Source of the DNA: Margaritifera margaritifera
Lineage: Eukaryota > Mollusca > Bivalvia > Unionida > Margaritiferidae
DNA length: 64,000 bases
NCBI GenBank assembly: GCA_029931535.1
Contig: JAQPZY010001256.1
Span: forward strand, 557,001-621,000
Reading direction: 5' to 3'
A model generated the notes under the pieces. It saw only the letters and a program-made list of their open reading frames with translations, had not been told where the DNA came from and made no database searches. The translations under genes and the position numbers were made by a program. Of this stretch, positions 10,654 through 32,194 are shown piece by piece (positions within the stretch are counted from its first letter, which is position 1; every line of letters begins with the position of its first letter).

Positions 10654-10658
<5 letters not shown>

Positions 10659-10659: not shown

Positions 10660-10985
10660 AGTAGTATAGGGTGGGCATCGAGGTACGGGTGGCACTTGGG
10701 GTACCATGGGAATTTAACATAGAGGGTGGCACTTGGGGTACCAACGGGAATTTAACATAGAGGGTGGCACTTGGGGTACCAACGGAAATTTAACATAGCG
10801 GGTGGCACTTGGGGTACCATGGAAAATTAACATTGGGGCCTATCGGGGTACCAACGAGAATGGAACATGGTGTGGCCTCTATGGGTACCAACGGGGAAAA
10901 AAAAAATAAAGAGAGAGAGAAGTAGGGCAATCATGGAAAATTAATCTTTTCTTGAAAAATGGGTGGCCCTGAAAAGGGCCATTGG
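10660..10985. repeat. Left terminal inverted repeat
   Basis: It begins AGTAGTATAGGGTGGGC and holds four consecutive 38-bp subterminal repeats starting GGTGGCACTTGGGGTACC. A GA-rich stretch and a histone-type 3'-end signal follow. It matches the reverse complement of 26,187-26,476, except that the right end has only three subterminal copies, which accounts for the length difference. Confidence 0.95.
10945..10980 (-). terminator. Histone-type mRNA 3' end: stem-loop plus U7-box-like element
   Basis: On the minus strand the sequence reads GGCCCTTTTCAGGGCC (10,965-10,980), then ACCCA, then CAAGAAAAGA (10,945-10,954). Stem of six pairs, four-base loop, ACCCA cleavage region and a downstream purine box match the metazoan replication-dependent histone 3' signal in order and spacing. 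The stem begins 11 nt after the stop of the 197-aa gene and lies inside the terminal repeat. In histone mRNAs such stems bind SLBP and the purine box pairs with U7 snRNA. That this happens here is inference. Confidence 0.85.
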
Positions 10986-10991
10986 AGTTTT

Positions 10992-11585
10992 TTACTTTTT
11001 CCTCCAACATTGAGTCAGGAAGCCTAGGAGGGTGTTGGTATTCTTCTTTTTCTTTGGGAGTGGTGGTGAATTGGGCAGCCAGTCGGGATGTTCCATGCGT
11101 CTGAACTTATCCTGGATTTTCATCCAGTTTAAATTCTGGCGTTGAAATTTCTTTTCTTTTCTGGCTTGCTCCTTTTGACTTCTTTCGAGAGCCCAAAAGA
11201 TCTTAATGTGTGCTACTTCTTGCTCCAAAACTTTTTTTAATAATAATTTTGTCATGTGAAGATTTATCTCTTCTCGCCTGACGCTACTGGCTGGTGGATA
11301 TATCCTACAATCTTCCTTCACTTGGTGTAGGAAGTATTCCGCCCCATCCAGTAAGTCGAGGGCCGACTTGATAAATCCCACACGACAAGGAGCCGAAGAA
11401 GTCTTTTGCGATTCCTCCACTAAGACATCCTTCACCAGCCTCCTCGCTGAAGTGAGAGCCGCTAGTTGGCTGGTGACGTATGGCTTGGTGGCAGGATATC
11501 TCCACCAACACTCCAACCTTTCCACCAAAGACTCCACACCTACCATCAAATCCCAGGCTTCCTGCAATAATTCAATAGTATTCAT
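10992..11585 (-). CDS. Left-end Polinton protein of 197 aa, helical, basic C-terminus
   Basis: I do not recognise the family. The protein starts MNTIELLQEAW and is predicted helical by eye, with many Leu/Glu/Lys heptad-like stretches through residues 1-150. A charged segment follows (QKEQARKEKKFQRQ) and then a Pro- and Lys-rich tail (PPLPKKKK). Residues near 45-58 (SARRLVKDVLVEE) resemble AHDLVEEVLREE in the 142-aa gene two loci to the right, so the left-end genes may be distant paralogues. It is the last gene of the element and has the shared promoter module about 40 bp upstream of its ATG. It ends 11 nt before a histone-type stem-loop. There is no signal peptide, membrane segment or Cys cluster. 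Intact reading frame. The function is unknown. Timing of expression with S phase is an inference from the flanking signals. Confidence 0.75.
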   Translation of the reverse strand: MNTIELLQEAWDLMVGVESLVERLECWWRYPATKPYVTSQLAALTSARRLVKDVLVEESQKTSSAPCRVGFIKSALDLLDGAEYFLHQVKEDCRIYPPASSVRREEINLHMTKLLLKKVLEQEVAHIKIFWALERSQKEQARKEKKFQRQNLNWMKIQDKFRRMEHPDWLPNSPPLPKKKKNTNTLLGFLTQCWRKK

Positions 11586-11621
11586 CTTCTTGTTGTTAAA
11601 GTGAATGGTGCGACTGCGGAA

Positions 11622-11670
11622 GACGCCGCTTTATATGATAGAAGCGCGGACGTGAAGGAAAACATCTCTT
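11622..11670 (-). promoter_or_regulatory. Shared left-end promoter module, copy 1
   Basis: Minus-strand order: GATGTTTTCCTTCACGTCCG, then CGCTTCTATCATATAAAGCGG, with a TATA box (ATATAAA, 11,630-11,636). The same words precede the 142-aa gene, and with a weaker TATA the 89-aa gene; a decayed version lies in the second element. The ATG at 11,585 is about 45 bp downstream of the TATA box, which allows a short leader. Confidence 0.75.
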
Positions 11671-11889
11671 TTTTCCAAAACATAATTTTTTCTTATCAAA
11701 CACAAACAAACACACACCACACCATCCATTTTTTTTTAAATCAAAAAAACACACCACACCATCCATTTTTTTATTTTTTTTATCAAACACACACCACACC
11801 ATCCTTTTTTTAAAAATTTTTTATCAAACACACAAACACACTCTATACAAACACACTCTGCAAACACATATAGGGCAATCATGAAAATT
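11671..11889. other. Low-complexity spacer between left-end genes
   Basis: Plus strand rich in ATCAAACACACAAACACACC and T-runs. On the coding strand it reads as A-runs with TGTGTTTGATAAA. Similar spacers separate the next pair of genes and occur in the second element. No coding sequence. Confidence 0.7.
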
Positions 11890-11891
11890 AA

Positions 11892-11927
11892 TCTTTTCTT
11901 GATTAATGAGTGGCCCTGAAAAGGGCC
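11892..11927 (-). terminator. Histone-type mRNA 3' end after the 89-aa gene
   Basis: Minus strand: stem-loop GGCCCTTTTCAGGGCC (11,912-11,927), ACTCA, then CAAGAAAAGA (11,892-11,901). It begins 22 nt after the stop of the 89-aa gene. Stem, loop and purine box are identical to copy 1 while the sequence between them differs, which points to selection on the signal itself. Confidence 0.85.
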
Positions 11928-11949
11928 GTTTGGTTTTGTTTGGTGTAAA

Positions 11950-12219
11950 TTAGCGGTGCGGGCACCTCCCTGGCTTTTCCCGACACGCGGGACAGCTTCC
12001 CCTCCATGTTTTTTGGCTTACTTTACATGGAGCTGTGAAGGCCGACGGAGGATGAGTCGCTTCAGACTCCCAATTTTCCTTCTCCTCCATCATCGGATTT
12101 GGTCTGATCGGTTCCTTCTTCTCTTTTTCCTCCTCCTCCCTCTTCTCCACTTCATGGAGAAGGTGCCACGCCACCTCTAGATGTACTCGTATCTGTCGTA
12201 CAATTTCGATCTTGTTCAT
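11950..12219 (-). CDS. Left-end Polinton protein of 89 aa
   Basis: Not recognised. It starts MNKIEIVRQIRVHLEVAWHL, similar in style to the neighbouring 197-aa protein (MNTIELLQEAW). An acidic/basic coiled stretch follows (EKREEEEKEKKE), then a C-terminus with CPACREKPGRCPHR whose three Cys could bind metal or form disulphides. The ATG lies about 45 bp downstream of a divergent copy of the shared promoter (TATATTAAAA in place of ATATAAA). A histone-type stem-loop starts 22 nt after the stop. The short length and the extra open sequence around it leave room for truncation. The repeated flanking signals are the main evidence that it is a real transcription unit. Confidence 0.6.
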   Translation of the reverse strand: MNKIEIVRQIRVHLEVAWHLLHEVEKREEEEKEKKEPIRPNPMMEEKENWESEATHPPSAFTAPCKVSQKTWRGSCPACREKPGRCPHR

Positions 12220-12260
12220 TTTGATAAGTGAACGGGGTAGCTCATCTAGGGAAAGTGTTG

Positions 12261-12300
12261 TTTTAATATACTAGAAGCGCGGACGTGAAGGAAAACATCC
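12261..12300 (-). promoter_or_regulatory. Shared left-end promoter module, copy 2
   Basis: Minus strand reads GATGTTTTCCTTCACGTCCG, then CGCTTCTAGTATATTAAAAC. The upstream element is almost identical to the other copies but the TATA word is changed, so this promoter may be weaker. Confidence 0.7.
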
Positions 12301-12830
12301 CATACACCTTAAAAAAACATTACCCACACTACCCGCGGATTTCGCACTCCATGACCCCTTACCCCAAAAACACAGACCCAGTGCGCGGACCTAAAAGAAA
12401 ATATTTTTTAAAAATTTTTATCAAACACACAAACACACCACCCTTTTTTATTTTTTATTTTATTTTTATCAAACACAAACACAATCCTTTTTTTATTTTT
12501 TATTTTGTTTTTATCAAACACAAACACAAACACACAATCCTTTTTTTAATCAAACACACTCCACACTATCCTTTTTTTATTTTTTATTTTATTTTTAGCA
12601 AACACAAACACACAATCCTTTTTTTATCAAACACACACCACAAACATACAATCCATTTTTTTTTTATTTTTTATCAAACACACCACACCATTTATTTTTA
12701 TTTTTTAATTTTTAATCAAACACACACCACACTATCTATACAAACATTATTTTTTGGAAAAGGGATTTTTGTTTGGTGGGTAAAACACAAACATACACAC
12801 ATACAAACATACAAAAATTTTTGTTAAGGC
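12301..12830. other. Low-complexity A/C- and T-rich spacer
   Basis: About 500 bp of repeated ATCAAACACAAACACAATCC words and T-runs, in at least six irregular units. Open frames across it have simple-sequence composition. No gene. Confidence 0.75.
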
Positions 12831-12847
12831 AATCGAAGAGTAGTTAT

Positions 12848-12882
12848 CTTTTCTAGAGATCTGGGTGGCCCTGAAAAGGGCC
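12848..12882 (-). terminator. Histone-type mRNA 3' end after the AT-hook gene
   Basis: Minus strand: GGCCCTTTTCAGGGCC (12,867-12,882), ACCCA, then CTAGAAAAGA (12,848-12,857). It begins 24 nt after the stop of the 142-aa gene. The stem-loop is perfectly conserved although the surrounding spacer is not. Confidence 0.85.
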
Positions 12883-12906
12883 GTTGGGGTTAAGAAGTTA
12901 TGTTGT

Positions 12907-13335
12907 TTAACTTCTAGTAGTAGCAGCAGTAGCGGTAGCAGCCGCAGCAGGGCGGCCACGTTTAGCCACAGGTCTCGTGGCTGCTGTTGGACAAGCTCTC
13001 TTTCTGGTAAAAGAGAAGGCAAACTCCTCGCAGTCTATCTTGCAGCTGACTTCTCCGTCGGGTACTTTCATGGACTGCAAGAGTTGTAGCTGCTGCTGTT
13101 TTTGTTGTTGTTGTTGTCTTTGCTGCTGTTGCTGCTGCAGTCTTTGTCTCTCCTCCCATTCCGTTCTGTCCCTGATGATTTCTTCCCTCAGGACTTCTTC
13201 CACCAGATCATGAGCCATTTGTAGGAAGATCATTGTCTTTCTCTCAGGGTTGGTCTCCATCAAATGATGCTTCACCCTTTGCATATTCACCATAGCGTCG
13301 TTCATTTTGCTTATCTTGGCTGCTGCCATCTTCAT
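12907..13335 (-). CDS. Gln-rich protein with AT-hook (142 aa)
   Basis: Residues 1-60 look helical (AHDLVEEVLREEIIRDR). Residues 64-86 are almost all Gln with a few Arg/Lys/Leu. Residues 90-112 include a Cys pair (SCKIDCEEFAFSF), and the C-terminal 30 residues are basic and Ala/Thr/Pro-rich with KRGRP at 125-129, the core of an AT-hook that binds the minor groove of AT-rich DNA. The tail composition recalls histone H1 and HMGA proteins, but there is no histone fold that I can see. It has the strongest copy of the shared promoter (TATA about 60 bp upstream of the ATG) and a histone-type 3' end. A role in packaging or regulating the AT-rich element DNA is inference. CAG-type repeats explain the Gln tract, so its length may vary. 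Confidence 0.75.
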   Translation of the reverse strand: MKMAAAKISKMNDAMVNMQRVKHHLMETNPERKTMIFLQMAHDLVEEVLREEIIRDRTEWEERQRLQQQQQQRQQQQQKQQQLQLLQSMKVPDGEVSCKIDCEEFAFSFTRKRACPTAATRPVAKRGRPAAAATATAATTRS

Positions 13336-13387
13336 GAAGTGTTGTTAAGATCTTGACTAGTCAACGAGAGTGACTACACAGGCCAAC

Positions 13388-13430
13388 GCACCGCTTTATA
13401 TGCTAGAAGCGCGGACGCGATGGAAAACAT
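13388..13430 (-). promoter_or_regulatory. Shared left-end promoter module, copy 3
   Basis: Minus strand: ATGTTTTCCATCGCGTCCGC, then GCTTCTAGCATATAAAGCGG and TGCG. TATA box at 13,394-13,400. It sits between the protease gene's 3' end and the AT-hook gene, so the three left-end genes have promoters separate from the capsid block. Confidence 0.8.
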
Positions 13431-13617
13431 GGGGTTCAGATCGATAGTGAGAAATGGATAGAGGTGGTGACTTCAGATCGATAGAAAGTGAAATAGAGCC
13501 TATTCATTTTGTTTTTCAAATTCAATAAACAACACCACACCATTTTTTCAAAAATCAACATTTTTTAATGAACAAGAAGCTTCTTTAAACATAAAAAGGT
13601 AAACAATGATCAAGATA

Positions 13618-14190
13618 TTAAACAGGAACGTATTTATAGGGTTGACAACGTTGGGAAGGCAAACTGAACTTCCACTTTTCTACATCTACATCATTCTGAT
13701 GCACACTACGTTTCTGAGCTAAAGACAAGAGATATCCATAACGTTCACAAAACCATCGTTCTACTTTAGCATCGTTTCGAGCATATTCTCTATCAAAAAA
13801 AGTCACTAAATGTTCTAGGGAATATCCGAGACTGCGTTGATGAAGATAATGTACACAATATTGTCCGCACACCATTGAATCCGATCCTTGTAATTGGGCA
13901 TTATTGAATCGAGTAGAGATGGCATTTCTTCTCATAAAGTCGATGATGTCGTCTTCCAAAGGAGGTAATCCATAAGAATCAAAATATTCCACATCACCAC
14001 TGTGATCGTTGGGAAAGTACACAGCTACCCAATGGGTTCCTGGTCGATGACTGTCGTCGGTATTGATGACATAGGCATGAACGTCTTTAGGTTTGCGATG
14101 GGGTAGTTCATCTTTAGCACACACCACAGGATTCCATGAAGAAGTGTAGGAATTGCGAGTCAACAGGTAATGAAGTTCCCTGGTATCCAT
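13618..14190 (-). CDS. PRO: Adenovirus-type (adenain-like) cysteine protease
   Basis: Polinton maturation protease of the Ulp1/adenain clan, expected to cleave capsid precursors. Numbering from the ATG at 14,190 (190 aa): His53 in GTHWVAV, Asp71 in EYFDSYG, Gln101 of the oxyanion hole and Cys108 in VCGQYC. The Gln-to-Cys spacing of seven residues is as in the family. The frame is intact. The 87-aa gene's TGA at 14,196-14,198 lies within the leader, and the ATG follows an A-run (AAAAAAATGG), which favours this start over the upstream GTG. It lies between two small ORFs and the left-end genes, its usual place next to the capsid block. A diverged copy lies at 30,640-31,217. Confidence 0.93.
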   Translation of the reverse strand: MDTRELHYLLTRNSYTSSWNPVVCAKDELPHRKPKDVHAYVINTDDSHRPGTHWVAVYFPNDHSGDVEYFDSYGLPPLEDDIIDFMRRNAISTRFNNAQLQGSDSMVCGQYCVHYLHQRSLGYSLEHLVTFFDREYARNDAKVERWFCERYGYLLSLAQKRSVHQNDVDVEKWKFSLPSQRCQPYKYVPV

Positions 14191-14195
14191 TTTTT

Positions 14196-14459
14196 TCACA
14201 GGAAATAATAAGTCATCAATTCACACTTGACTTTAAATTTGAATTGATCTGTCAAGTAAATCCACGACGATTCACTGCGGATAGTTTCTGTACTTTGTTG
14301 CAAGAGAGCTTCGATGCGTTTGATCTCCAGAGGAGTGAGTGGAGGTGAAGAAGAATCCTGCAAGTCTTTATACCATTGTCTAAACACCTTTTCTTCCGAG
14401 ATCTGAGACCAGGCCTCCTCCAAATATTCATCCAATTTTTCTTCGCCCGTCATCATCAA
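14196..14459 (-). CDS. Small conserved Polinton ORF (87 aa)
   Basis: Not recognised beyond its copy in the second element (about 30,400-30,635), which shows it is a shared gene of this Polinton lineage. It starts MMMTGEEKLDEYLEEAW and is acidic and helical in appearance. It contains PPLTPLEIKRIEALLQQST and ends MTYYFL. No membrane segment or Cys motif. The ATG is 18 bp below the end of the 91-aa gene, and its stop touches the protease leader, so the genes are packed as in a capsid operon. The function is unknown. Confidence 0.7.
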   Translation of the reverse strand: MMMTGEEKLDEYLEEAWSQISEEKVFRQWYKDLQDSSSPPLTPLEIKRIEALLQQSTETIRSESSWIYLTDQFKFKVKCELMTYYFL

Positions 14460-14477
14460 ACATTGGTCGTGTTGTTT

Positions 14478-14753
14478 CTAACTGGGATGATCGATTTGAC
14501 ATCCATGACAATGTTCTCGGGTCAGGCTGTTAATTCTTTCAGTCAATTCCTTAGCATAACAGGAGACTAAATGTTTTTCTTGTTCAGGCCATTGAGAAAT
14601 AAATCCAATAAACTTGGGAACAGTATTATTCTCTTCTTCTTTTGGAAGTTCTGGATGAATCAACCCGTCATCATCAGTGATTTGTGACTGTTGTACTTCA
14701 CAAAATCCCTCATCATTATCTATCTCCATAGGTTCTTCTTCTACGTGTTGCAT
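14478..14753 (-). CDS. Small acidic Polinton ORF with CHGC motif (91 aa)
   Basis: The first 50 residues are acidic (EEEPMEIDNDEGF, then PELPKEEENN). The C-terminal 40 hold SQWPEQEKHLVSCYAKEL and REHCHGCQIDHPS. The block from WPEQEKHLVSC to the CxxC/H region is the best conserved part in the second element (30,255-30,390), suggesting a small functional domain, perhaps metal-binding (C-x2-C with nearby His). The ATG follows an A-run (GAAAAAAAGATG) directly after the major capsid gene's end. The function is unknown. Confidence 0.7.
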   Translation of the reverse strand: MQHVEEEPMEIDNDEGFCEVQQSQITDDDGLIHPELPKEEENNTVPKFIGFISQWPEQEKHLVSCYAKELTERINSLTREHCHGCQIDHPS

Positions 14754-14764
14754 CTTTTTTTCTT

Positions 14765-16142
14765 CTAATAGTCTAGAATTACTTCTCTCAAACTGTTGAT
14801 CTCTAGAGTATTATCAAATTCTGCATACAAGACGACGTTCACTGTCTCGGGTAGAGGATTTGCAAACTGAAGTTCCACACGAAGTGGGCCTGATTTTATA
14901 GGGTGGAATGTCTTTCGTCGCTGCCTTGGTCCGGAGTGAAATCAAAACCCCACAAGGCATACCCTCCTGCATAATCCTGGTACGAAATACCGTGGCTGGT
15001 GTTGGTGCCTAACTGTCCTGTGGCTTCAAACAGACTCAAGTAAGATCGCAAGTATTTTTTCTGGGTAAAGTCAGGTTCAAAAGGTCTGGTACACAATGCT
15101 TTGCCATCTCGACTGACTTCTATCTTTTTGACGTCAAAGTGCTTGAAGTTGAACGGATTTTCTTTGTGGGATCCATTGAAGGCTGAATTTTTGACGATGC
15201 CAATCAGCAAACGTTTGGGTAGCTGTCCTTGGAAGACGTGATCTTCGACTTTGGATTGGGCTCCAGTGCCAATGGTAAATGTTTTCACTTCCACTCGTCG
15301 CACAGGATACTTGGCAGTGGTTCTGCTCAAGGTTTGACTGATGTCGTTGGCTACTTTAGGTAAGACTAATGAAGGTTTTCCACGGGTTGTTGTCACCATT
15401 GACCATCAAATGGAAAGCAGCACTACTGCGATTCAGTCTCAGACGTACATCTACTCCGTTCAACAAATACTTGTCTTGCAACCACATGTCCAAATGCAAA
15501 CGATCCATCAGTTCTAAAGTTCGCCCTCTGATTTTCTCTCGACGGGCGTTAAATCCCACATTGTACGGGGTTTCTGGAGTTATATTTTCAATTAGATCGT
15601 CACCAGCCTTCGTAACCTTCGCCGGTACAGTCGCAAGTGTGTCGTTGAAGATATCAATAATCTTTGTATTAGGGTGGACCCCCTCCTTTCTCGTTCCCGC
15701 GGTGTCAGGTTTCCAGACCACCGAAGCATCCAGATGAGTGTTCTTGGCTTCTTTTCCGTACGTCAAGAAATTTTCCAAGTAAGCACGGTAAGGGTAAGTA
15801 TCCAAACTGCTGCTGACCAGTTTGTTATTCAAGTACAAATATATTCCGCTGAACAAGGAATGCATGACATTATTGACAAGTGCCACTAGGTCATCGGCAT
15901 CTGGAGGGTACACCATCCTTCGTTTCGGCCACTTTGCGTTTCAGGTACAAGTAGCTGTTATTCAGATCGATGTAATCTTCGGTTTGTCCTTTGATTTCAA
16001 ATTCAATAGGAGCTGAATCTGTCAAAGACGATACAGGATGAAATTCTACCCATTGGGATTCTTGCATCGTCATCATGGTGGGAGGCATGGAAAACAGATC
16101 CAGTTCTGACTTGGTACATTCGCAAGAATCTCGGTGCATCAT
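14765..16142 (-). pseudogene. MCP: Major capsid protein (double jelly roll), frameshifted
   Basis: Polinton MCP of the PRD1-adenovirus lineage, which would form the trimeric hexon-like capsomer. Reading begins at 16,142 (MMHRDSCECTKSELD) and includes FEIKGQTEDYIDLNNSYLYL, typical of the MCP N-terminus. Four segments in different frames cover it: about 16,142-15,900, 15,916-15,360, 15,399-14,896 and a tail ending at the TAG at 14,765. Breaks therefore lie near 15,900, 15,375 and 14,905. Conserved blocks include [41 protein letters not shown] and a final NSLREVIL. Each segment is well preserved, so the breaks are recent or are assembly errors. A decayed copy is at 28,759-30,067. Confidence 0.9.
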
Positions 16143-16178
16143 TTTTAATGGCTTTTAGTAATCTCTGACTGTTCTTCT

Positions 16179-16577
16179 TTACTTATTCTTTTTTGAACCA
16201 CCGTGTGTTTTATTAGCTCTGAAGGGACGTCGTCTCTTTCTGCCTTGTCCTTGCTGTGGAATGGAGGAAGAAGTAATGCCCGGGCCAGAAGCGTGAAGCG
16301 AATTTATAGGACTCTCTCGGAGACCCAAAAGATCTTTGCCAGTGTGCATCAACACATTTTTGCCTGCTCTCATAAAGGCTTCTTTGGGATTTTGTTTGTC
16401 GATGAGGACGTTTTGCAGAAATTCTTTTCCTTGTGTCAAAGCGGCATCTTTTAAGGCATGCAATCCTCGAGTCACCATGGGTTTCAAAATAGGGGCTACC
16501 GTCCGAAAAGACGATTTTAACATATCTCCTAAACCGTGTCCTCGTTGTCGAGCCACTCCTCGGTACACAAGATACAT
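16179..16577 (-). CDS. Small basic virion-type protein, GHGLGD family (132 aa)
   Basis: A conserved Polinton gene between the penton and major capsid genes. It starts MYLVYRGVARQRGHGLGDML, followed by an amphipathic stretch (FRTVAPILKPMVTRGLHALK), an LTQGKEFLQNVLIDKQ block and a strongly basic C-terminus (GQGRKRRRPFRANKTHGGSKKNK in outline). The Gly-rich start plus amphipathic helix plus basic tail resembles internal adenovirus-type core or membrane-lytic proteins in layout. That comparison is inference, not detected homology. ATG preceded by AAAAAAATG. The frame is intact; the copy in the second element (28,303-28,700) is frameshifted. Confidence 0.8.
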   Translation of the reverse strand: MYLVYRGVARQRGHGLGDMLKSSFRTVAPILKPMVTRGLHALKDAALTQGKEFLQNVLIDKQNPKEAFMRAGKNVLMHTGKDLLGLRESPINSLHASGPGITSSSIPQQGQGRKRRRPFRANKTHGGSKKNK

Positions 16578-16584
16578 TTTTTTG

Positions 16585-17559
16585 TTACAATTCGTTAGAG
16601 AACTTTTTTCGAAAATGTAGTTTCACCGTGACTTTTCCTTTGTCAATGAATGGAACATCTTGTCCCAAATCTCCTTTTATACTAATGTTGACACTGTCAA
16701 AATACGATTTACTGACTGGAAGATAATGAGGATGTACAAATTCACGGTGAACGTGAAACGTGTTTCCAACTTCTTCGTACGCACCAGCAGCAGTATCCAC
16801 TTTGAAAGGAATGACTCTCAGTAAGGGAGCGGCTGTGTGTCCCACCACGTTGTACTCCACCACATCGGAGTACACAAACATTAAATTCAAACCAACGTTC
16901 AATTCGATAGGGGTTTTAAAAGCTTCTCCGAAATCTGTGTTGGTGTGGATTGTTCGATCACCATGATAGCCTTTATTTCCACCCAAAATATCAAACAACC
17001 CAGAAGAAAAAGTGATGGTCATGAATTTTCTGTCGTGAATCTGAAAGTTGTCTTTGTCAACTTTGTCTTCTAATGGTTTCCCCCCATTCCCTTTCAAAAA
17101 TTGCAAGACGAAACGGCGTGCCACAGGATGGTATCTGATCTCTACCCATTTTTGTTTTTTTTCCAAGGCTTTGCCAAATTGGGCTTTGAAGACGGCCGCA
17201 ATCGTCTCCACCAAATGTTGAGCACTAAAATAATACCCTTCAGGAATTCTCATGCGATAGGTCGAGTAGGGAGTATTGCCCTTTTGTGTACCTATTTTTT
17301 TCCCAATTTCAGGATCATGGGCGTCCAACTCTTTTTGGACTTTTTAGTTATAGATTGCTACGTCAAAAATGGTTTGATTTCCAGACACATTCTTGATTTG
17401 CGTAGGATGAATGTTTTCTACCAAAGCCACTTCCCAATGCGCATCGCGATCCAATTGGATGGCCTGAAGTAATTTGGCCGTGAAACAACATAATTTGTTG
17501 TTGGGAAACACATCCATGGAACTGTCACTCGGAAAAGTTAAATAAAATTGGTCATTCAT
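16585..17559 (-). pseudogene. Minor capsid (penton, single jelly roll) protein with in-frame stop
   Basis: The N-terminal part, from ATG at 17,559 (MNDQFYLTFPSDSSMDVFPN), carries the FYLTxPSxSSMDV signature of Polinton penton proteins, and HWEVALVENIHP follows. A TAA at 17,344-17,346 ends it after 71 codons. The same frame then stays open for the rest of the protein to 16,585 (contains IPEGYYFSAQHLVETIAAVF and ISIKGDLGQDVPF, ending FSNEL). Since both sides are in one frame, the break is a single nonsense codon rather than an indel. The protein normally forms capsid vertices. The C-terminal end is duplicated as a fragment at 28,196. Confidence 0.85.
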
Positions 17560-17984
17560 TGTAGGTCCAAAGTTTTGCTCTCCGAGGAGTCACTCGAGTT
17601 CAAATGATGTTCAAATGGTTCCAAAAGAGGACTACTATGGTGACTGGAAGAAGGTGGTGGACTGGCGTTGGTCGTACTACCGTGTTGTTGTCTGCTGTTG
17701 TGGTGACTGTTGTCCGTCGTCGTAAATTTCAAAGAGGGACTGGGTAGAAGATAACCGATGCAACTGCTGAGTAAAATGGTCCACAATTGTTTGTCCCCTT
17801 GTTGTAAACTCAAATTGGCAATAGCTTCTCCGATGACACAATACACCACAAAAATTTGGCAGAAAAAGACGATTTGATTTTTAGGCACACGTTCTCCGCA
17901 CCACACCCAGAGCGGTTGTTTTTGTAATTCTTGAAGAGAAGAACTCTGCGAAGGAGTCGAGGTCGTGGTTGTGTTGAATGGCAT
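17556..17984 (-). CDS. Polinton membrane protein with two hydrophobic segments (142 aa)
   Basis: After a Ser/Thr-rich start, residues 32-58 are hydrophobic (VPKNQIVFFCQIFVVYCVIG). A second segment around 66-82 follows (LWTILLSSCIGYLLPSPSLK). The LWxxLLSSxxGYLLPSP signature is one I associate with a small membrane protein common in Polintons. The C-terminal 60 residues are Ser/His/Pro-rich and probably disordered. A TATA-like CTATAAAAA lies 20-28 bp upstream of the ATG, inside the end of the integrase gene. Its stop overlaps the penton ATG by a few bases. Role unknown, possibly in an internal membrane or entry. Confidence 0.75.
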   Translation of the reverse strand: MPFNTTTTSTPSQSSSLQELQKQPLWVWCGERVPKNQIVFFCQIFVVYCVIGEAIANLSLQQGDKQLWTILLSSCIGYLLPSPSLKFTTTDNSHHNSRQQHGSTTNASPPPSSSHHSSPLLEPFEHHLNSSDSSESKTLDLQ

Positions 17985-19106
17985 GTTAGGTTACTTCTTC
18001 TTCTTTTTATAGTAACGACTTGGGAAGCAGCAATCCAAGAAGCAAAACTAGGAGGATATCCTTTCCAACGTACTTTGACTTCTTCTACTCGACGTTTGCC
18101 TACTTTGCGTGTTCTTTGTTCGAGAATGCTTTCGATGTTGTACAAGGCGTCTTCTTCTTTGGTCACTCGTTGTAACTCAGGCAAGTAAAATGTTCCTTTG
18201 AGCACTTCACCGTGCATGTCTTCCAATTTATAGACGCGAGGATTACGTCCACGCACGGGTGTAGTGACACGAAACAATTCGGTGGTCCAGTTGGGTAAAT
18301 AACCTTTGTCAAAAGTGCGTTTGGTTTTTCCGATGCGAACCCAATCTCCCGTCTTCAACTCCAGCAAGGTTTTTTTTCTGGGGTCTGCTCTGGGGTGTAC
18401 CAAACAATCGATCAATCACGGTCACTTCGTTTTCAGGGCTGACCTCTTCGAGGGCACATCCGATGCTTCGATGGTACGATTGATTGTACGCTTTGACCAA
18501 ACGGGGTAACACGTCGATGTACTTGAGAGTGTGTTGATGTGTAAAATATTTCCACATGCGTTCTTTCAAAATTCTTTGAAAACGTTCCACGATACTGGCT
18601 TTGGTTTCAGGATTTTCGGTGGTAAAAAAATGAATGTGTCTTTGTTTCAATTCTTTTTGAAAAGCTTGGTTTAGAAATTCGGTGCCTTTGTCAGTTTGCC
18701 ATCGTAAAGGGTGACGACCACTTTGTTTCAAGACCAATTTTAAGGCACGTACTAATTCGGTACTGCTTTTAGAAGTCAAAGGCACGACCCAAGCAAATTT
18801 GGAAAACACGTCGATGACACAAAACAAATATTTGTGACCACGATTGCAGGCTGCCAAATTTGAGACGTCGGCTAAATCGGCTTGCCATTGATGATCGATG
18901 CCTTCCACTTGGGTTGGACTTCTAGAAAATTTTCGTCGAAAGGGTTCGTGTAATGTGTACGTCGATTGTTCTTGTAACCATTGTCGTACTTCGGGCAAAC
19001 GTACACTTTTCAATTTACTTTTGGCAGCTCGATATAATTTATGAACTCCTAAGTAACAAGCAGCATGGCCAGGATTGTAATAAAGGCTGGTTAAAAGTTT
19101 CTCCAT
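17810..19106 (-). pseudogene. INT: Retroviral-type integrase with chromodomain, frameshifted
   Basis: The first segment (19,106-18,309, ATG at 19,106) is an rve integrase. The DDE residues are Asp77 (QADLADV), Asp139 (WQTDKGTEF) and Glu174 (SIVERFQR), preceded by the YYNPGHAACYLGVHKLYRA region. The C-terminal segment lies in another frame (18,415 downwards). It contains a DWVRIGKTKRTFDKGYLPNW block and a chromodomain (about 18,142-18,017: YNIESILEQ to RWKGYPPSFASWI), used for targeting chromatin. The frames switch at an eight-base A/T homopolymer at 18,370-18,377. The open frame runs on to 17,810 and overlaps the next gene, so the natural stop is probably near 17,995 and has also been lost. 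Confidence 0.9.
18003..18012 (-). promoter_or_regulatory. TATA-like box before the 142-aa membrane protein
   Basis: CTATAAAAA on the minus strand, 20-28 bp upstream of the ATG at 17,984. The spacing is short for a TATA box unless the leader is almost absent. Confidence 0.4.
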
Positions 19107-19112
19107 GATTCC

Positions 19113-20144
19113 TCAATAAGTTACCCACTGTTCGATGCTACTACTTTGAGTGTCGTGAGGTTTGGACGAAGCGGCTTGACGCGTTCGACGAGATACAGGA
19201 GTGGGCAGTGAAGAAGGGGTGATGGTAGGTTTCTTCTTGGTGGTGTCTTTTTTTACTTCAGTCTTGCTGTCTTTCTTTTTTTCTTCTGCTGAAGAAGGAG
19301 TGGACATCTTCTTTTTAACCCAAGCTTTCATGGCTTCTCGATGAGGGGTAGGAGAGGGTGTCAACAAGGAAGCTGCAATTTGACTAGGTATGCCAGCAGA
19401 CGGAGTTTGAAACACTTCTCGGGGCTCGTCTTCTACTGTCATCCCCGTGGCGGTGTCTGTTTTAGTGGTCGTGGTAACTTTAGGTTCGCTTTTCATCAGG
19501 GCCTTGAAATCTCTCAGAGTGGGTGGAGCTGTTTCGTCTACAGCTTTTTGGTGAAAGAGTTGCAGACGTTGTAAGAGTTGACCGTACCGTTGCGATTTTT
19601 CTGTTTCTGACAAATCGCTTCGTTCCATCAGCGTTTGTAATTCTTGTTGTAACTGTGACATCTCGTTGAGATTAGGATTGGGTGGTAAATGAGGTATCCG
19701 TTGTTCGTTCCAACGATGGAATTCCATCCATCGTTTGTAAGGTACTAAAGTCAGTTTTCGTCCTTCCATTTCATCCAAAGGTACAAAAATGTGTGGTCCC
19801 GAAGTGGCGACTTTCGAAATGGGTTTCCATTTTTGCATCAAATTAGGAAACACTTGTCTTAAGTCTGGTTTGGCAGGCATCATCATGAAGGGAGGTGAAG
19901 AAGATGATGTGGACGCAAGAGGAGACCTCGTCACTGCTGGCTGTCGCGGTGGTGTCTTGCGGGTGTACGTTTGCGTCCTGGCAGCAGTACCTCTCTTGCG
20001 GGTGCCAGTGGTCGTGGGTGTTTTCTTCTTGGCAGAACTTTTCTTTTTCTTGGGGGCTTTCTTTTTAGGGCTTTTCTTTTTTTGTGGCTTTCTTTTTGGA
20101 ACTTTTCTTCTTTTTTGGTTTTTTGGGTTTTTTGGCTTGGGCAT
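19113..20144 (-). CDS. Lys-rich Polinton protein (343 aa)
   Basis: Residues 1-47 are nearly half Lys with Pro and Ser (KKKSPKKKAPKKKKSSAKKK), like histone H1 tails or adenovirus core proteins. Residues 55-90 are Thr/Pro/Ser-rich. Residues 95-200 contain a more ordered part (RQVFPNLMQKWKPISKV, FVPLDEMEGRKLTLVPYKRW) and a helical SQLQQELQTLMERSDLSE stretch; the rest is Lys/Ser/Thr-rich and disordered. It overlaps the preceding conserved gene in another frame across a run of AAG/AAA codons. It may be an independent gene with its own ATG, or the C-terminal part of the preceding gene separated by an indel. A DNA-condensing core role is inference. Confidence 0.7.
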   Translation of the reverse strand: MPKPKNPKNQKRRKVPKRKPQKKKSPKKKAPKKKKSSAKKKTPTTTGTRKRGTAARTQTYTRKTPPRQPAVTRSPLASTSSSSPPFMMMPAKPDLRQVFPNLMQKWKPISKVATSGPHIFVPLDEMEGRKLTLVPYKRWMEFHRWNEQRIPHLPPNPNLNEMSQLQQELQTLMERSDLSETEKSQRYGQLLQRLQLFHQKAVDETAPPTLRDFKALMKSEPKVTTTTKTDTATGMTVEDEPREVFQTPSAGIPSQIAASLLTPSPTPHREAMKAWVKKKMSTPSSAEEKKKDSKTEVKKDTTKKKPTITPSSLPTPVSRRTRQAASSKPHDTQSSSIEQWVTY

Positions 20145-20477
20145 AAGGATCCCATTTCAAAAGTGAACGAATCATGACCCCTCCTAAAGAACCGCTCCCT
20201 CCAGGGGTTAAAATGATTTGTTTTTTAATCCGTGGATCGATTCTAGGATCGGCTAGTTGTGACAACGCCCCTTTATGTTTTTGAAAAAAACGTTGAGTTT
20301 GATGAGGGATGTGAATGATGCCTTGCAGTAATTGACGTGCCGTCAAAGTAAACCATCGTAACACTTCTTTGAGACTAGCTTCTAACAAATGAGCACGGAC
20401 TTGTGGATTTTTTTGCGACTGATACCATACAAGGCACGAATCAATTTAGACGAAGGATGAGCTTGAAAGGAAGTCAT
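20065..20477 (-). pseudogene. Conserved Polinton protein with GGSGSLGG motif, frameshifted
   Basis: ATG at 20,477 (MTSFQAHPSSKLIRALYG). The frame breaks at a seven-base A/T homopolymer near 20,407-20,413. The continuing frame holds a KHKGALSQLADPRIDPRIKK helix region and ILTPGGSGSLGGVMIRSLL, then a Lys-rich end shared in position with the next gene. The arrangement of a basic helical block ending in a Gly-Gly hydrophobic tail (RxKKxILxxGG) is one I recognise from small proteins in many Polintons and related elements. I do not know its role. A TATAAAAAC box lies at 20,514-20,522, about 40 bp upstream of the ATG. Confidence 0.7.
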
Positions 20478-20513
20478 CTCGAAGACTGTGAGACAGAAAT
20501 GACGCGGTAGATG

Positions 20514-20522
20514 TTTTTATAG
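20514..20522 (-). promoter_or_regulatory. TATA box before the GGSGSLGG gene
   Basis: CTATAAAAA on the minus strand, about 37-45 bp upstream of the ATG at 20,477 and just below the ATPase stop. The spacing fits a TATA box with a short leader. Confidence 0.55.
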
Positions 20523-20528
20523 TTTTTT

Positions 20529-21274
20529 TTAGAGAGTGGCTGAAGGGGATTTGTAAATGACAGGACCTCCTTCTTGGCACCAATGGTGAAACAATTGGGT
20601 ACGAAATCTCAAATAGTCGGGAGTGGTCGGTTTTAAGTCAATGAGTAAATACGCATGAGGTGTTTGAGTGGCATCGTCGTACGCATAATTCAACCAAGGA
20701 GTGCCTAACTGTTTGGCTAACACTTGCACTTGAGATTTGTCTCTGGATCTTTTAAATAACACCACGTAATGAGCGTTGAGACTGATGGTACGATGGGCTT
20801 TACTTTGTTGAAATAAAGTTTGAGTAATGTAAATGATGCTGGCATTTCGATGGTGTCCTTTTCGTGTAAACCAAAGTTTAATTTCTTCTTCGTCTTCTCC
20901 TAACATGTCGTCGAAGATGACCAGATGTGTTTGACTCACGTCAGACACGATCCCATCGTCTTCGCGAGGAATGCCTTCCACAAACGAAATGGTTTCTCCT
21001 TGACTTTCACGAAGTAAGGTGTAAGACGATTGCCACTCTTTAAAGAGTAACACCACACGATGCGTTGAGGTGGACGATCGAACAGATGAGATTTGTGTTC
21101 GATCGCTCGTTTGACAAATTCGGTTTTGCCTGAACCACTAGGTCCAGCAATCAACATGTTAAAAGGATGGCGCATATACAAAGCTTCCCAACTTGGACGA
21201 TCTAACTTTTCGTCGATCACTTTGACCACAGAGGAAGTAGAATAGGCAGACGAGGCAGAAGAAGATGTAGCCAT
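20529..21274 (-). pseudogene. ATP: FtsK/HerA-type DNA-packaging ATPase (A32-like), frameshifted
   Basis: The N-terminal frame starts at 21,274. Walker A is GPSGSGKTEF (residues 44-53, about 21,145-21,116), followed by PPQRIVWCYS. The C-terminal frame (from 21,056 down) has Walker B HLVIFDDML near 20,912 and the SIIYITQTLFQQ and HRTISLNAHY blocks typical of Polinton and adintovirus packaging ATPases. The two frames switch around 21,030-21,040 at a TTTAAAG stretch, consistent with a single-base loss. The protein would drive genome packaging into capsids. The remaining sequence is well conserved, so the break is recent or an assembly error. Confidence 0.9.
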
Positions 21275-21336
21275 GACTGAGGTAGGAAGATTTTTGAGAA
21301 GAAGACAAAAGACCTAAGACATACGTTTCAAACACG

Positions 21337-21342
21337 TTTATT
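21337..21342 (-). terminator. Poly(A) signal AATAAA
   Basis: AATAAA on the minus strand 33 nt below the stop of the 104-aa membrane gene. It shows that at least one gene of the element uses ordinary polyadenylation, in contrast to the left-end genes. Confidence 0.55.
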
Positions 21343-21374
21343 TTTTTTGTAAAACAACACAACGAAAACATATT

Positions 21375-21689
21375 TTACAAGTCATGAAGGACAAAAATGC
21401 ATACCGCAAAAATGGTCAGGTACAAGATTAAGGCTACCACTAAAAGAATTAAAGTTCTGTATAAACAAATCAATGTACAACAAGAACAAAACACTGTCCT
21501 AGGAATGGAAGGCACAGGCACTGGCGGTAGTATTCTTCTGCTCGTCTTTGTTCTGGTGGTGGTGGTAGAAGAATGAAATGTCTCTGACGGTAAGGAGGGG
21601 GTGTGTTCCTCAGGGGGTTGTATTTGGACGACGACGGTGTGGTCTTTCTCTGCTGTGTCAGGTTCTTCCAGGATTGTTTCTAAGGTCAT
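21375..21689 (-). CDS. Tail-anchored small membrane protein (104 aa)
   Basis: I chose the start at 21,689 (MTLETILEEPDTAEKD) because the frame upstream overlaps the 88-aa gene, and this ATG lies 37 nt after that gene's stop. The first 60 residues are polar, with Pro/Thr/Ser-rich stretches. The last 40 are strongly hydrophobic with a Cys cluster (VFCSCCTLICLYRTLILLVV), ending CIFVLHDL. One membrane segment at the C-terminus suggests a tail anchor. An AATAAA signal follows. Not recognised; possibly a virion membrane or host-membrane protein. Confidence 0.65.
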   Translation of the reverse strand: MTLETILEEPDTAEKDHTVVVQIQPPEEHTPSLPSETFHSSTTTTRTKTSRRILPPVPVPSIPRTVFCSCCTLICLYRTLILLVVALILYLTIFAVCIFVLHDL

Positions 21690-21726
21690 TTTTGACTTGG
21701 ATTTCAAGTGGTTCACTTTTGTAAAC

Positions 21727-21993
21727 TTAGTGACGTGCCAGGTCTTTGGCAAACTGGGCCACTTCTTGTAGCCAAGCATCGAAACCAATTTTTCTCCAGT
21801 CACGTACATCTTTCCAAGCGTAAAGTTGTTGGTGTAACTCACTTGCAATACACACTTCTTGAAACGTGTGAAGGGTAGATAAAGTTTGACTAATGTCTTC
21901 TTCACACGGAGCTACCCCACTCGTCTTCATCACCACTCTCAACACTTTGAGTACAATTTGTCTTTCGTGTACCGATAAAGCATGAATGGTCAT
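21727..21993 (-). CDS. Small Polinton ORF (88 aa)
   Basis: It starts MTIHALSVHERQIVLKVLRV and is helical in appearance, with no membrane segment. It contains TLSTLHTFQEVCIASELHQQ and a Trp-rich AWKDVRDWRKIGFDAWLQ. A TATA-like run (CATAAAAAAAC) ends directly before its ATG. Not recognised. It sits in a row of small ORFs between the ATPase and polymerase, spaced by 20-40 bp, which supports it being a real gene. Confidence 0.6.
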   Translation of the reverse strand: MTIHALSVHERQIVLKVLRVVMKTSGVAPCEEDISQTLSTLHTFQEVCIASELHQQLYAWKDVRDWRKIGFDAWLQEVAQFAKDLARH

Positions 21994-22019
21994 GTTTTTT
22001 TATGGTTCATCAAAATAGT

Positions 22020-22265
22020 TCAAAACAACCACGGGTCCTCCAAAATAATCCAAGACAAACAATGGTCCTCAAAAATGCTCCACAACGAATGTCCTGGAAA
22101 ACGAAATCCAAGAAATGCAGTCACTAACACACACACGACATAGCGTCCAAAATTCAATGGAAACAGTTCTTGTATCAAGTGTTTATAATCCTCTAAGGTC
22201 TGAACACGCTCGTTGACTTCCTTCCACGGAATACGTTTCACAAGTGTAGACCACAGTCCTGTCAT
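22020..22265 (-). CDS. Small ORF with one hydrophobic segment (81 aa)
   Basis: It starts MTGLWSTLVKRIPWKEVNER, followed by a polar helix and then a hydrophobic stretch (GRYVVCVLVTAFLGFRFPG). The C-terminus is Trp-rich (LSWIILEDPWLF). ATATAAAAACCC ends a few bases before the ACCATG start. This TATA-containing segment is duplicated just upstream (22,269-22,351). The 3' end shows tandem similarity (GGTCCTCCAAAATA words), so the C-terminus may be recently altered. Function unknown. Confidence 0.55.
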   Translation of the reverse strand: MTGLWSTLVKRIPWKEVNERVQTLEDYKHLIQELFPLNFGRYVVCVLVTAFLGFRFPGHSLWSIFEDHCLSWIILEDPWLF

Positions 22266-22268
22266 GGT

Positions 22269-22351
22269 GGGTTTTTATATCTAGGTTCCCAAGGTTGGTA
22301 TCTTTTGTGGTGAGTTTTTATATCCAGGTTCCTAAGGTTGGTATCTTTTGT
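22269..22351 (-). promoter_or_regulatory. Tandemly duplicated TATA-containing promoter segment
   Basis: Two consecutive ~42-bp copies of a segment that on the minus strand reads CACAAAAGATACCAACCTT, then GGAACC and GATATAAAAA. They lie between the 81-aa gene and the repeat-bearing gene upstream. The copies differ at only a few bases. Confidence 0.5.
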
Positions 22352-22459
22352 GAAAGTCTACTCCAAGGTGTCTATGATAGTCTCTCCCCAGAATCAGTCT
22401 TCTCATACTGTGAAAGTAAGCATAGTTTACAAATCGAGGAATGACTCTGAGTTTGCGTT

Positions 22460-22840
22460 TCACTTGTATCTGGACAACTCTTTGCAAATGCGTTCTCGCA
22501 GCTCCAAAGGCAAACCACGAATGTGTTCTTGTAAAGTATCCGACTTGGAAAGAAGTAACTCTCTTTTGTTTTCTTCACAATAGCTGTGATAGTTTCTCCT
22601 CAGAATCAGACTTCTGATACGGTGGAAGTCGCGGTAGTGCGCAAATCGAGGAATGAATTTGAGTTTGCGTTTCACTTGGATCTGGACAAACTCTCCGTAA
22701 ATGCGTTCTCGCAACTTCAAAGGCAAATCACGAATGCGGTCTTCTAGACTAGGTTTGTTGGTGACAAAATACTGGTAAATGCGTTCTCGCAGCTCCAAAG
22801 GTAAACCACGAATGTATTCTTGTAAAGTATCATCCGACAT
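22460..22840 (-). CDS. Protein with repeated F-box-like LPLELRERIY motifs (126 aa)
   Basis: The ATG at 22,840 lies one base after the stop of the upstream 75-aa gene. The motif RGLPLELRERIYQYF occurs near the N-terminus, again as RDLPLKLRERIYGEF about 26 residues later, and a third time near the C-terminus (RGLPLELRERICKEL). LPxELxxxI is the core of the F-box, which binds Skp1 in ubiquitin ligases; three copies in a small protein would be unusual. The DNA shows that the third copy belongs to a tandem duplication of roughly 240 bp. It continues past the stop to about 22,370 but is out of frame after loss of one T in a TTT. F-box identity is inference from the motif. Confidence 0.55.
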   Translation of the reverse strand: MSDDTLQEYIRGLPLELRERIYQYFVTNKPSLEDRIRDLPLKLRERIYGEFVQIQVKRKLKFIPRFAHYRDFHRIRSLILRRNYHSYCEENKRELLLSKSDTLQEHIRGLPLELRERICKELSRYK

Positions 22841-22841
22841 G

Positions 22842-23069
22842 TTACTTCTTCTTGGCATCCGGCTCATTGTACCCGTACTCTTCTGAAGCAACTAAAGGCA
22901 AGTACTGACAGCGTACGGCATCCGTCTCATCGTGTGAATCGCTGATGCCAAAGCGTACGGAATCCGTCTCCTCGCATGGCACTGCATCGCACTCCAAGTC
23001 GTGATGGCACCTGGAGTTCACACTAGATTTCTCACTCGGTGGGTGGGTGGTATGAGTATTCTTATTCAT
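22842..23069 (-). CDS. Small Cys/Asp-rich ORF (75 aa)
   Basis: It starts MNKNTHTTHPPSEKSSVNSR. Residues 25-60 contain three imperfect copies of a DSHDETDAVRC-like unit (AVPCEETDSVRFG, SDSHDETDAVRC), so it too grew by internal duplication. No membrane segment. The stop is one base before the ATG of the next gene, an overlap-style junction that supports both. It follows the polymerase stop by about 20 bp. Not recognised. Confidence 0.5.
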   Translation of the reverse strand: MNKNTHTTHPPSEKSSVNSRCHHDLECDAVPCEETDSVRFGISDSHDETDAVRCQYLPLVASEEYGYNEPDAKKK

Positions 23070-23091
23070 CTTGCTCGGTCAACGTTGAAAG

Positions 23092-26000: not shown

Positions 26001-26166
26001 AGGGACTGACAAAAGTGCGTCGACAGGTTTCACAATGGACGTGTTGTTCAGGAAGGCATGGTTTGTCCGCTAAACAGCCCCGACATCTCTGACCGCAATG
26101 AGTGTGTCGCTCCCGATTGTTAAATCCTTGGTCACGAAAAAGAAGACCCTCCAGGAGATGTCTATG
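23092..26166 (-). pseudogene. POLB: Protein-primed family B DNA polymerase (pPolB), two frameshifts
   Basis: Replicative polymerase of the element. The N-terminal 100 codons hold many Cys/His pairs (HCGQRCRGC, CETCRRTF, MCSTCGQL, RCRFCQQM), a zinc-ribbon-like region. The Exo I residues Asp/Glu are in FFDFECMQ; Exo II is split by a frameshift near 25,460, directly after VIAHN. A second frameshift lies in a T5 run near 25,286. The large C-terminal frame (25,248-23,092, 718 codons) carries Exo III YCRSDVDIL, motif A DVCSLYP (about 24,429), motif B KVMLNCLWG (about 23,862), motif C YFDTDS (about 23,565) and KNYGY. The open frame extends up to a TAA at 26,167-26,169 with no ATG before the zinc region. 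The start may be lost or supplied by splicing. Confidence 0.93.
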
Positions 26167-26186
26167 TTAAACCAAAAAAAAAAAAA

Positions 26187-26476
26187 CCAACGGCCCTTTT
26201 GAGGGCCACCCATTTTTCAAGAAAAGATTAATTTTCCATGATTGCCCTACTTCTCTCTCTCTCTCTATTTTTTTTTCCCCCGTTGGTACCCGTAGAGGCC
26301 CCACCATGTTCCATTCTCGTTGGTACCCCGATAGACCCCAATGTTAATTTCCCATGGTACCCCAAGTGCCACCCGCTATGTTAAATTTCCGTTGGTACCC
26401 CAAGTGCCACCCTCTGTGTTAAATTCCCATGGTACCCCAAGTGCCACCCGTACCTCGATACCCACCCTATACTACT
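26187..26476. repeat. Right terminal inverted repeat
   Basis: Reverse complement of the left repeat, ending CCCTATACTACT at 26,476, with three 38-bp subterminal copies instead of four. It includes a stem-loop in plus orientation. Confidence 0.95.
26192..26227 (+). terminator. Histone-type stem-loop in the right terminal repeat
   Basis: Plus strand GGCCCTTTTGAGGGCC (26,192-26,207), ACCCA, then CAAGAAAAGA (26,218-26,227). It differs from the left copies by one loop base (C to G). No plus-strand gene ends here, so it may simply be carried along by repeat symmetry. Confidence 0.7.
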
Positions 26477-31384: not shown

Positions 31385-31482
31385 TAAAAACAATGTTTTC
31401 TTTCACGTCCGCGTACCGAATTGGAGGAGTGTATTTCTTCACGTCTGTGCTTCTGCCACATAAAGCGGTGCGTTCACCAGTC
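31385..31482 (+). promoter_or_regulatory. Left-end promoter module, second-element copy
   Basis: Plus strand ATGTTTTCTTTCACGTCCGCG at 31,391-31,411, followed by an interrupted second half TTCACGTCTGTGCTTCTGCC and ACATAAAGCGGTGCG at about 31,463-31,477. It matches the three promoters of the first element, with the TATA changed to CATAAA. Confidence 0.7.
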
Positions 31483-32158: not shown

Positions 32159-32194
32159 TGCCCTGTTCAGGGCCACCCAGATATCTAGAAAAGA
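32159..32194 (+). terminator. Histone-type 3' end, second-element copy (degenerate)
   Basis: TGCCCTGTTCAGGGCC (32,159-32,174), ACCCA, then CTAGAAAAGAGAGCT from 32,185. The outer stem pair is lost and one loop base is changed relative to the first element. Spacing and purine box are kept. Confidence 0.7.

Follow-up and report, generated by a model that had tools for sequence, protein, structure and literature searches.

The stretch of DNA considered here, 64,000 nucleotides (nt) from the bivalve Margaritifera margaritifera (contig JAQPZY010001256.1, positions 557,001 to 621,000; C739:557001-621000 in our numbering) and called the window below, carries an integrated Polinton/adintovirus-like element, element A, and a decayed second copy, element B. 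Three minus-strand genes, g1, g2 and g3, lie at one end of element A. They are set apart by long spacers, unlike the compact core block, whose genes overlap or abut. Each of the three is followed by a signal of the kind found at the 3′ ends of metazoan replication-dependent histone genes: a stem-loop, an ACCCA-type stretch and a purine box. The stem starts 11 nt past the stop codon in g1, 22 nt in g2 and 24 nt in g3. A further signal of this type lies in the terminal inverted repeat (TIR) at the other end, after the remnant of a rightward gene, gR2, which in other copies adjoins a leftward gene, gR1. Coordinates are collected in Table 1. To our knowledge, this type of 3′ processing is specific for histone mRNAs.

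When the whole window was compared with 4227 Rfam families by cmscan, RF00032 (Histone3) was the sole family with gathering-level matches. There were four, with E-values of 2.9e-9 to 2.6e-8; the model has 46 positions and a curated cut-off of 34 bits. An earlier sequence-only reading of the window had claimed that three minus-strand genes end in histone-type signals 11–24 nt after the stop, and this was borne out, with scores of 40.1–42.6 bits. It had named five sites in all. Four of them match the model in that range, and the fifth, in element B, is decayed and falls under the cut-off with 21.1 bits. Allowing up to 3 mismatches, the 16-mer is found 5 times in the window, against 0.09 expected from shuffles, and a strict metazoan consensus pattern matches at the three gene-end sites only. 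Folding z-scores of the stems on single strands run from -1.97 to -4.58 at the four good sites and reach -0.33 at the decayed one. All four element A sites also have a TTGCC box 33–34 nt past the stem. The claim that the signal is conserved and its flanks are not stood for the signal itself; the downstream flank is not wholly free, since the TTGCC box is kept there and the g1 and g2 sites are 90% alike across 69 nt. The histone-type 3′ signal at these sites is confirmed as real.

The motif recurs in related elements elsewhere in the genome (2.45 Gb searched); neither of two outcomes that the sequence-only reading had named as fatal to it, a missing covariance-model match and absence of the motif from every relative, came about. 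RF00032 scored at least 75 places, 75/75 above the cut-off (34.7–45.8 bits), in a search that scored the best candidates only and in which the host’s own histone sites were not among the 75. A control across 14 named genomes gave one match and none above the cut-off. Fifty of the 75 loci were read, and each of the 50 codes for one or more of the five element gene families (tblastn, with g1–g3 from the window and gR1 and gR2 from locus L039): g1 in 38, gR2 in 31, gR1 in 29, g2 in 12 and g3 in 3. Because the loci were picked by the RNA model alone, this ties the signal strongly to the gene set; the loci are related copies and so do not represent 50 independent events. Gene order differs among sublineages, given that g1, gR1 and gR2 are found together within 3 kb in 20 of the 50. 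The exact form GGCTCTTTTAAGAGCCACCCA-N-AGAAAAGA is found at 24 places in the genome and its reversed control at 0. A stem pattern run on the 50 loci and element A gave 93 stem-loops, every one of them followed by a purine box.

The genes that bear the signal appear to be maintained. For g1, 14 intact frames gave 91 pairs, of which 31 without a finite synonymous rate (dS) were left out; the median ratio of nonsynonymous to synonymous rates (dN/dS) over the other 60 was 0.23. Of 13 pairs with the window copy, 8 had dS below 1.5, and in these 8 it was 0.17–0.26. The values were 0.16–0.41 for g2 (21 pairs, 7 frames) and 0.20–0.29 for g3 (3 pairs). These ratios, about 0.2, indicate that g1–g3 are under purifying selection. 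The signal is present at the loci of the frames compared, down to 47–49% g1 protein identity. In 45 distinct 46-nt sites, stem pairing is kept in 98.5% of cells, and two stem pairs alternate among C-G, U-G and U-A, where C-G to U-A is a change on both sides; this covariation is supportive, not decisive. AATAAA or ATTAAA occurs within 100 nt past the stem in 1 of 87 distinct stretches against 17.2 expected from mononucleotide shuffles, a depletion to which no probability is attached because the copies are related. By these comparisons, the signal is maintained over the long term at a defined set of element genes.

A search with PF00125 found tandem histone clusters in the host genome. Five stretches from host histone contigs (L071–L075) hold 21 stem-loops with 21 RF00032 matches of 34.2–40.6 bits (window sites 40.1–42.6), behind genes that we take, from their N-termini, to be H1, H2A, H2B, H3 and H4. 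Each of the five types ends in the signal, spaced as in the element. With four near-copies left out, 17 of the 21 host sites were measured, and the purine box starts 13–14 nt past the stem in 17/17; in the element sites it starts at 13 nt in 89/93, at 12 in three and at 14 in one. The sequence-only reading of this as a correctly spaced metazoan signal is supported, the type of stem and the distance to the purine box being those of the host histone genes. Host H2B (L071) reads GGCCCTTTTCAGGGCC ATACAT ATCTCTAGAAAAGAT, and the g3 site reads GGCCCTTTTCAGGGCC ACCCAG ATCTCTAGAAAAGAT. No RF00032 match was found in L076 (C226:143001-152500), a tandem array of an H2B-like variant (MSPKQAAGSKGAKKAITKTT...) with a repeat of about 3.76 kb.

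The TTGCC box, about 34 nt past the stem, lies outside the 46-position RF00032 model and had not been named in the sequence-only reading. Of 85 distinct element sites, 80 have it between 25 and 50 nt past the stem, where shuffles would give 2.2; of 16 distinct host sites, 6 have it, where shuffles would give 0.39. The background, in 25-nt windows taken 100–400 nt downstream, is 4 in 1078. The remaining host sites read TTGTC, GTGCC, ATGCC and similar, and the box is looser in the host than in the element. It may be a third component of histone 3′ processing in this lineage. In each respect compared, U7 pairing aside, the layout of the element signal is, as far as sequence can tell, that of the host histone 3′ signal.

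Of the machinery that would read the signal, the host has SLBP: its RNA-binding domain, PF15247, matches twice on contig C413, once with 64.3 bits and once, across one TAA, with 38.8. The single candidate for a U7 RNA (L079 1501-1564, C1214:1523816-1523879), under the Rfam cut-off, combines the Sm-site AATTTGTCTAG with a hairpin, and inspection by eye suggests that its 5′ part could pair with CUCUA and AGAU flanking the purine run. The pattern TCTTTT-N-AATTTGTCTAG gave 35 matches against 27 for the reversed control, and in the four inspected, three from a five-copy repeat and one other, there was no RF00066 match. Histone pre-mRNA is cut about 5 nt past the stem. SLBP binding, U7 pairing, cleavage by CPSF73 and the rise of SLBP before S phase are described in PMC7614891.

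On the mechanism proposed here, the terminal genes (g1, g2 and g3 at one end, gR1 and gR2 at the other) would be stand-alone units, each with a host-type histone 3′ signal, and the compact core, with its genes for capsid, integrase and polymerase, would stay without one. On transcription of a terminal gene, host SLBP would bind the stem-loop, the U7 small nuclear ribonucleoprotein would pair with the purine box, and CPSF73 would cut about 5 nt past the stem to leave an mRNA ending in the stem-loop, not in a poly(A) tail. Export, stability and translation of such mRNAs would be expected mainly in S phase, the time at which the element can replicate, because SLBP is an S-phase protein. Use of host SLBP/U7 3′ processing by the terminal genes is very probable. 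The cleavage itself, the absence of poly(A) and the S-phase timing are what we infer from the known pathway. In the core genes of element A, RF00032 has no match even at E<=10.

The terminal genes have more in common than their 3′ ends. An upstream, promoter-like module, TTTTCC(A/T)TC(A/G)CGTCCGCGCTTCTA, occurs at exactly three places in the window, one for each of g1, g2 and g3, and at no other element A gene; with a looser pattern, the one additional match is at the equivalent position in element B (31442). TATA-like boxes lie 50, 51 and 66 nt upstream of the ATG. In comparisons between the three cassettes, blastn alignments cover the module, the 3′ signal and a low-complexity spacer and leave out the coding bodies. 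The g1 halves, g2 and g3 resemble one another weakly as proteins (a score reached by 7 to 49 of 500 shuffles), a likeness not used here as an argument. The codon score of g2 itself is no better than that of shuffles (453/1000), but its family recurs in 12 of the 50 loci, with dN/dS of 0.16–0.41.

Searches of g1–g3 against Pfam, PHROGs and NCBIfam, and of g1 and g3 against Protein Data Bank (PDB) sequences, gave nothing better than E 0.01. Protein relatives were not found for g3 at E<=0.01 or for g1 at E<=1. Single-sequence AlphaFold2 (AF2) models reached a predicted local distance difference test (pLDDT) score of 78 with a predicted TM-score (pTM) of 0.63 for g1, for which the other four models had pLDDT 53–65, and pLDDT 73 with pTM 0.39 for g3. 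The proteins whose genes bear the signal are not recognisable as histones in the searches made with g1–g3. As a guess, g1–g3 are perhaps early regulators or DNA-binding proteins.

At the right end, gR1 and gR2 are best seen in other copies. In seven loci read, leftward gR1 adjoins rightward gR2, and the signal follows both wherever the stem pattern picked it up. A whole gR1 frame (L039, L043, L013) codes for 195–205 amino acids (aa), and in the other loci gR1 is shorter or cut up; gR2 has 76–77 aa in five loci, with longer frames in L013 and L041, and its C-terminal end reads ..RRCxC. The three whole gR1 proteins end in GLGRGKGL(R/G)QLKL, which by eye resembles the N-terminal start of histone H4. 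The right-end signal was considered as a mere mirror of the left TIR, and this was ruled out, as other copies have a rightward gene there. In element A, the DNA polymerase (PolB) matches full-length relatives only from about residue 216–231, and the N-terminal 215–230 residues are absent at the right TIR. Of gR2, only the last 22 codons are left, and gR1 and the PolB N-terminus are gone from the window copy. The right end (26102-26192) is rearranged, the gR2 tail lying close to PolB sequence that lacks its N-terminus.

Table 1. Features of elements A and B in the window (positions count from the first nucleotide of the window).
Feature	Position	Strand	Remarks
Element A, integrated Polinton/adintovirus-like, 15.8 kb, defective	10660..26476		TIRs; 6-bp target duplication TATATG at 10654-10659 and 26477-26482
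g1 3′ signal	10940..10985	-	RF00032 42.6 bits; stem-loop 10965-10980, ACCCA, purine box 10945-10953, TTGCC box 10926-10930; also within left TIR
g1, 197 aa, predicted four-helix bundle with basic tail	10992..11585	-	Open frame; AF2 single sequence, pLDDT 78
Promoter-like module of g1	11626..11662	-	TTTTCCTTCACGTCCGCGCTTCTA plus ATATAAAGCGG; motif search
g2 3′ signal	11887..11932	-	RF00032 41.2 bits; stem-loop 11912-11927, ACTCA, TTGCC box 11874-11878
g2, 89 aa	11950..12219	-	Open frame; family in 12/50 loci
Promoter-like module of g2	12263..12295	-	TATA position reads ATATTAAA; motif search
g3 3′ signal	12842..12887	-	RF00032 40.1 bits; stem-loop 12867-12882, ACCCA, box CTAGAAAAGA, TTGCC box 12828-12832
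g3, 142 aa, predicted helical hairpin, Q-rich middle, basic Ala-rich tail	12907..13335	-	AF2 single sequence, pLDDT 73
Promoter-like module of g3	13391..13427	-	Motif search
First gene of core block, adenovirus-type protease (weak match)	13618..14190	-	PF00770 E 0.0078, 16.4 bits, under cut-off 21.3; ATTAAA 48 nt past stop
Integrase core (rve) and chromodomain, broken, separate pieces	17810..19106	-	PF00665 2.6e-12; PF00385 4.7e-7
PolB C-terminal piece; gene broken further upstream	23092..25203	-	PF03175 4.9e-25
gR2 tail, rightward end gene, ends RKRRPSRRCLC-stop	26102..26170	+	Read by eye; 22 open codons, 21 nt from stop to stem
Right-TIR 3′ signal, end of gR2 remnant	26187..26232	+	RF00032 41.6 bits; stem-loop 26192-26207, loop UUUG, TTGCC box 26242-26246
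Element B, decayed, truncated second Polinton copy, opposite orientation	28196-32954		Right border by eye; about 1.7 kb from element A
Element B promoter-like module matching that of g3	31430..31507	+	blastn; looser pattern match at 31442
Element B decayed 3′ signal	32154..32199	+	RF00032 21.1 bits (cut-off 34); 39/46 bases identical to g3 signal

Element A is, to judge from its sequence, a Polinton/adintovirus-like provirus. Its outer ends read AGTAGTATAG... and ...CTATACTACT, and 278 of 328 alignment columns of the TIR arms are identical, 40 being gap columns. PolB has 675 relatives at E<=1e-5. Among the 120 of these that were listed, the best is 73% identical and lies on a metagenome contig, some further top matches are labelled bacterial metagenome bin, and the first animal-named relatives are from a bivalve (the oyster Saccostrea), with the PolB of a Rhodactis coral adintovirus also listed. 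Scans of viral contigs with the PolB piece, a PolB alignment, a g1 alignment and three stem-loop patterns gave no relative or match. The capsid candidate frames at 14896-15399, 15356-15916 and 16585-17253 have no Pfam match above cut-off, and hexon, the double jelly-roll major capsid protein, and penton are assigned by position only. Motifs reading TATAAAAA lie on the minus strand at 18011, 20521, 22279, 22322 and 23133, several of them just upstream of core genes, and possibly mark a separate core promoter class. Between elements A and B, blastn aligns three long blocks, which run from protease to penton, at 76–77% identity. The two elements share the module and the 3′ signal at a place where blastn fails to align the coding sequence between them.

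A number of observations weigh against host-type processing of the terminal genes, or limit how far it can be generalized. Several core genes of element A are broken and the copy is defective. AATAAA or ATTAAA is found up to 200 nt past the stop in only 3 of 13 core frames (at 29, 32 and 48 nt; 10 have none), and g2 and g3 each have one as well, at 174 and 190 nt, g1 having none; use of poly(A) by the core is thus no more than a possibility. The dN/dS ratio is 1 or more in 2 of the 60 g1 pairs. Among the 45 sites there are 4 broken stem cells, so that 4/45 sites break one pair, and the covariation is modest: its score is reached by 13 of 500 shuffles, and two doubly changed pairs by 95 of 500, in a sample of related copies whose stems were found with a stem pattern. 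Since only the best candidates were scored and the host histone sites are unlisted, the genome counts are lower bounds; the 50 loci read are the 30 best and 20 of the 21 lowest. The promoter-like module lies within 1300 nt upstream of only 40 of the 93 sites genome-wide, which makes it a feature of some signal-bearing genes, not a general one. The candidate U7 scores 29.4 bits against a cut-off of 34, with a genome-wide E of 0.21, and the same search, at E<=1, finds matches under the cut-off in 6 of 14 control prokaryotes as well. The duplex of the candidate stands out clearly from shuffles for only two of seven targets (g3, 3/200; H4, 2/200), the figures for g1, H1, H2A, H2B and H3 being 22–123 of 200.

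Other explanations of the signal have been weighed. The stem-loop might be a DNA or RNA element of replication, end-joining or packaging, its likeness to histone signals being incidental, and the outward-facing copy in each TIR would suit such a role. However, the internal copies follow the stops of g2, g3 and gR1 in the sense direction, and stem, purine box and TTGCC are laid out as in host histone genes, a layout that a replication hairpin would not need; this explanation is highly improbable. Alternatively, histone 3′ ends may have been captured once, along with gene fragments, and copied ever since as passengers devoid of function. The copies do share ancestry, the g1 and g2 sites are much alike, and around the purine box the g3 site is nearly the same as host H2B. 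A dead passenger would drift, as the element B site did, yet the signal is kept after five gene families, for g1 up to saturated dS, and between elements A and B where coding sequence is no longer alignable. There is very little chance that the signals are such relics.

More plausible than a relic, yet still unlikely, is that the five proteins are themselves strongly diverged histones or histone-like packers of DNA. Two are basic (isoelectric points of 9.6 for g1 and 9.7 for g3, that of g2 being only 7.7), the GLGRGKGL-type end of gR1 looks by eye like the start of H4, and ‘Histoid’ genes have been reported in some adomaviruses (PMC11071296). Against this, there was no histone match for g1–g3 in Pfam and NCBIfam or for g1 and g3 in PDB sequences, gR1 and gR2 not having been searched. 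The single-sequence models, moreover, show g1 as a bundle of four helices and g3 as a helical hairpin, with no histone fold, and Foldseek with the g1 model found nothing at E<=0.001. Finally, the many copies in the genome might serve as decoys that titrate SLBP or U7 and disturb the host’s histone supply. The sites follow families of maintained genes, and nothing in the analysis points to the high expression of a decoy, which makes this reading scarcely credible.

The most far-reaching interpretation, and probably a correct one, is that an integrated animal DNA virus lineage has a histone-type regulon of its own. It would comprise five end genes without recognisable histone kinship, three of them sharing a promoter module and all finished by SLBP/U7, with TTGCC as an unrecognised third box of host histone 3′ ends. 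If true, a DNA virus would here have a new means of linking the expression of its genes to the replication of host DNA, with one class of them tied to S phase and freed from poly(A)-dependent control. RNA sequencing after poly(A) selection would then miss the transcripts of the terminal genes. The element sites would also serve as a natural test of the requirements of the histone machinery, as they vary in their spacers, keep the essentials and point to the TTGCC box. For annotation there is a warning: the 30 best-scoring ‘histone stem-loops’ of the genome search all lie beside element genes.

Several known systems invite comparison. The viral histone H4 of bracoviruses is a true histone gene. 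It resembles the present case in that an animal virus gene is linked to the histone system, and differs in that the element has a set of non-histone genes. A 6-bp target duplication is a hallmark of Polintons. Element A shares it with Polintons/Mavericks and adintoviruses, together with PolB, an integrase with a chromodomain, a protease-like gene and TIRs. It differs from them in its histone-type 3′ ends, of which, in agreement with the sequence-only reading, no description was found for Polintons, adintoviruses, other viruses or transposons in searches of an open-licence library. It also differs in the absence of the PolB N-terminus: adintoviruses as defined in PMC11071296 have an N-terminal OTU-like domain of PolB, and in element A, the copy examined for it, the N-terminal 215–230 residues are absent. 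The ‘Histoid’ genes of adomaviruses likewise connect an animal DNA virus with histones, but there it is a protein that is said to resemble histones, and here it is the RNA 3′ end and not the proteins; the terms ‘stem-loop’ and ‘polyadenyl’ do not occur in the main text of that paper (PMC11071296). With the metazoan replication-dependent histone 3′ end itself (RF00032), the signal shares a stem of 6 bp under a loop of 4 nt, an A-rich flank on the 5′ side, the ACCCA-type stretch and the purine box at 13 nt, as well as its sense position soon after the stop and the scarcity of poly(A) signals downstream. The distance from stop to stem is 11–24 nt in the window and 27–36 nt in the host histone repeat of L071, and the genes that end in this way are not recognisable histones and are carried by a mobile, virus-like element.

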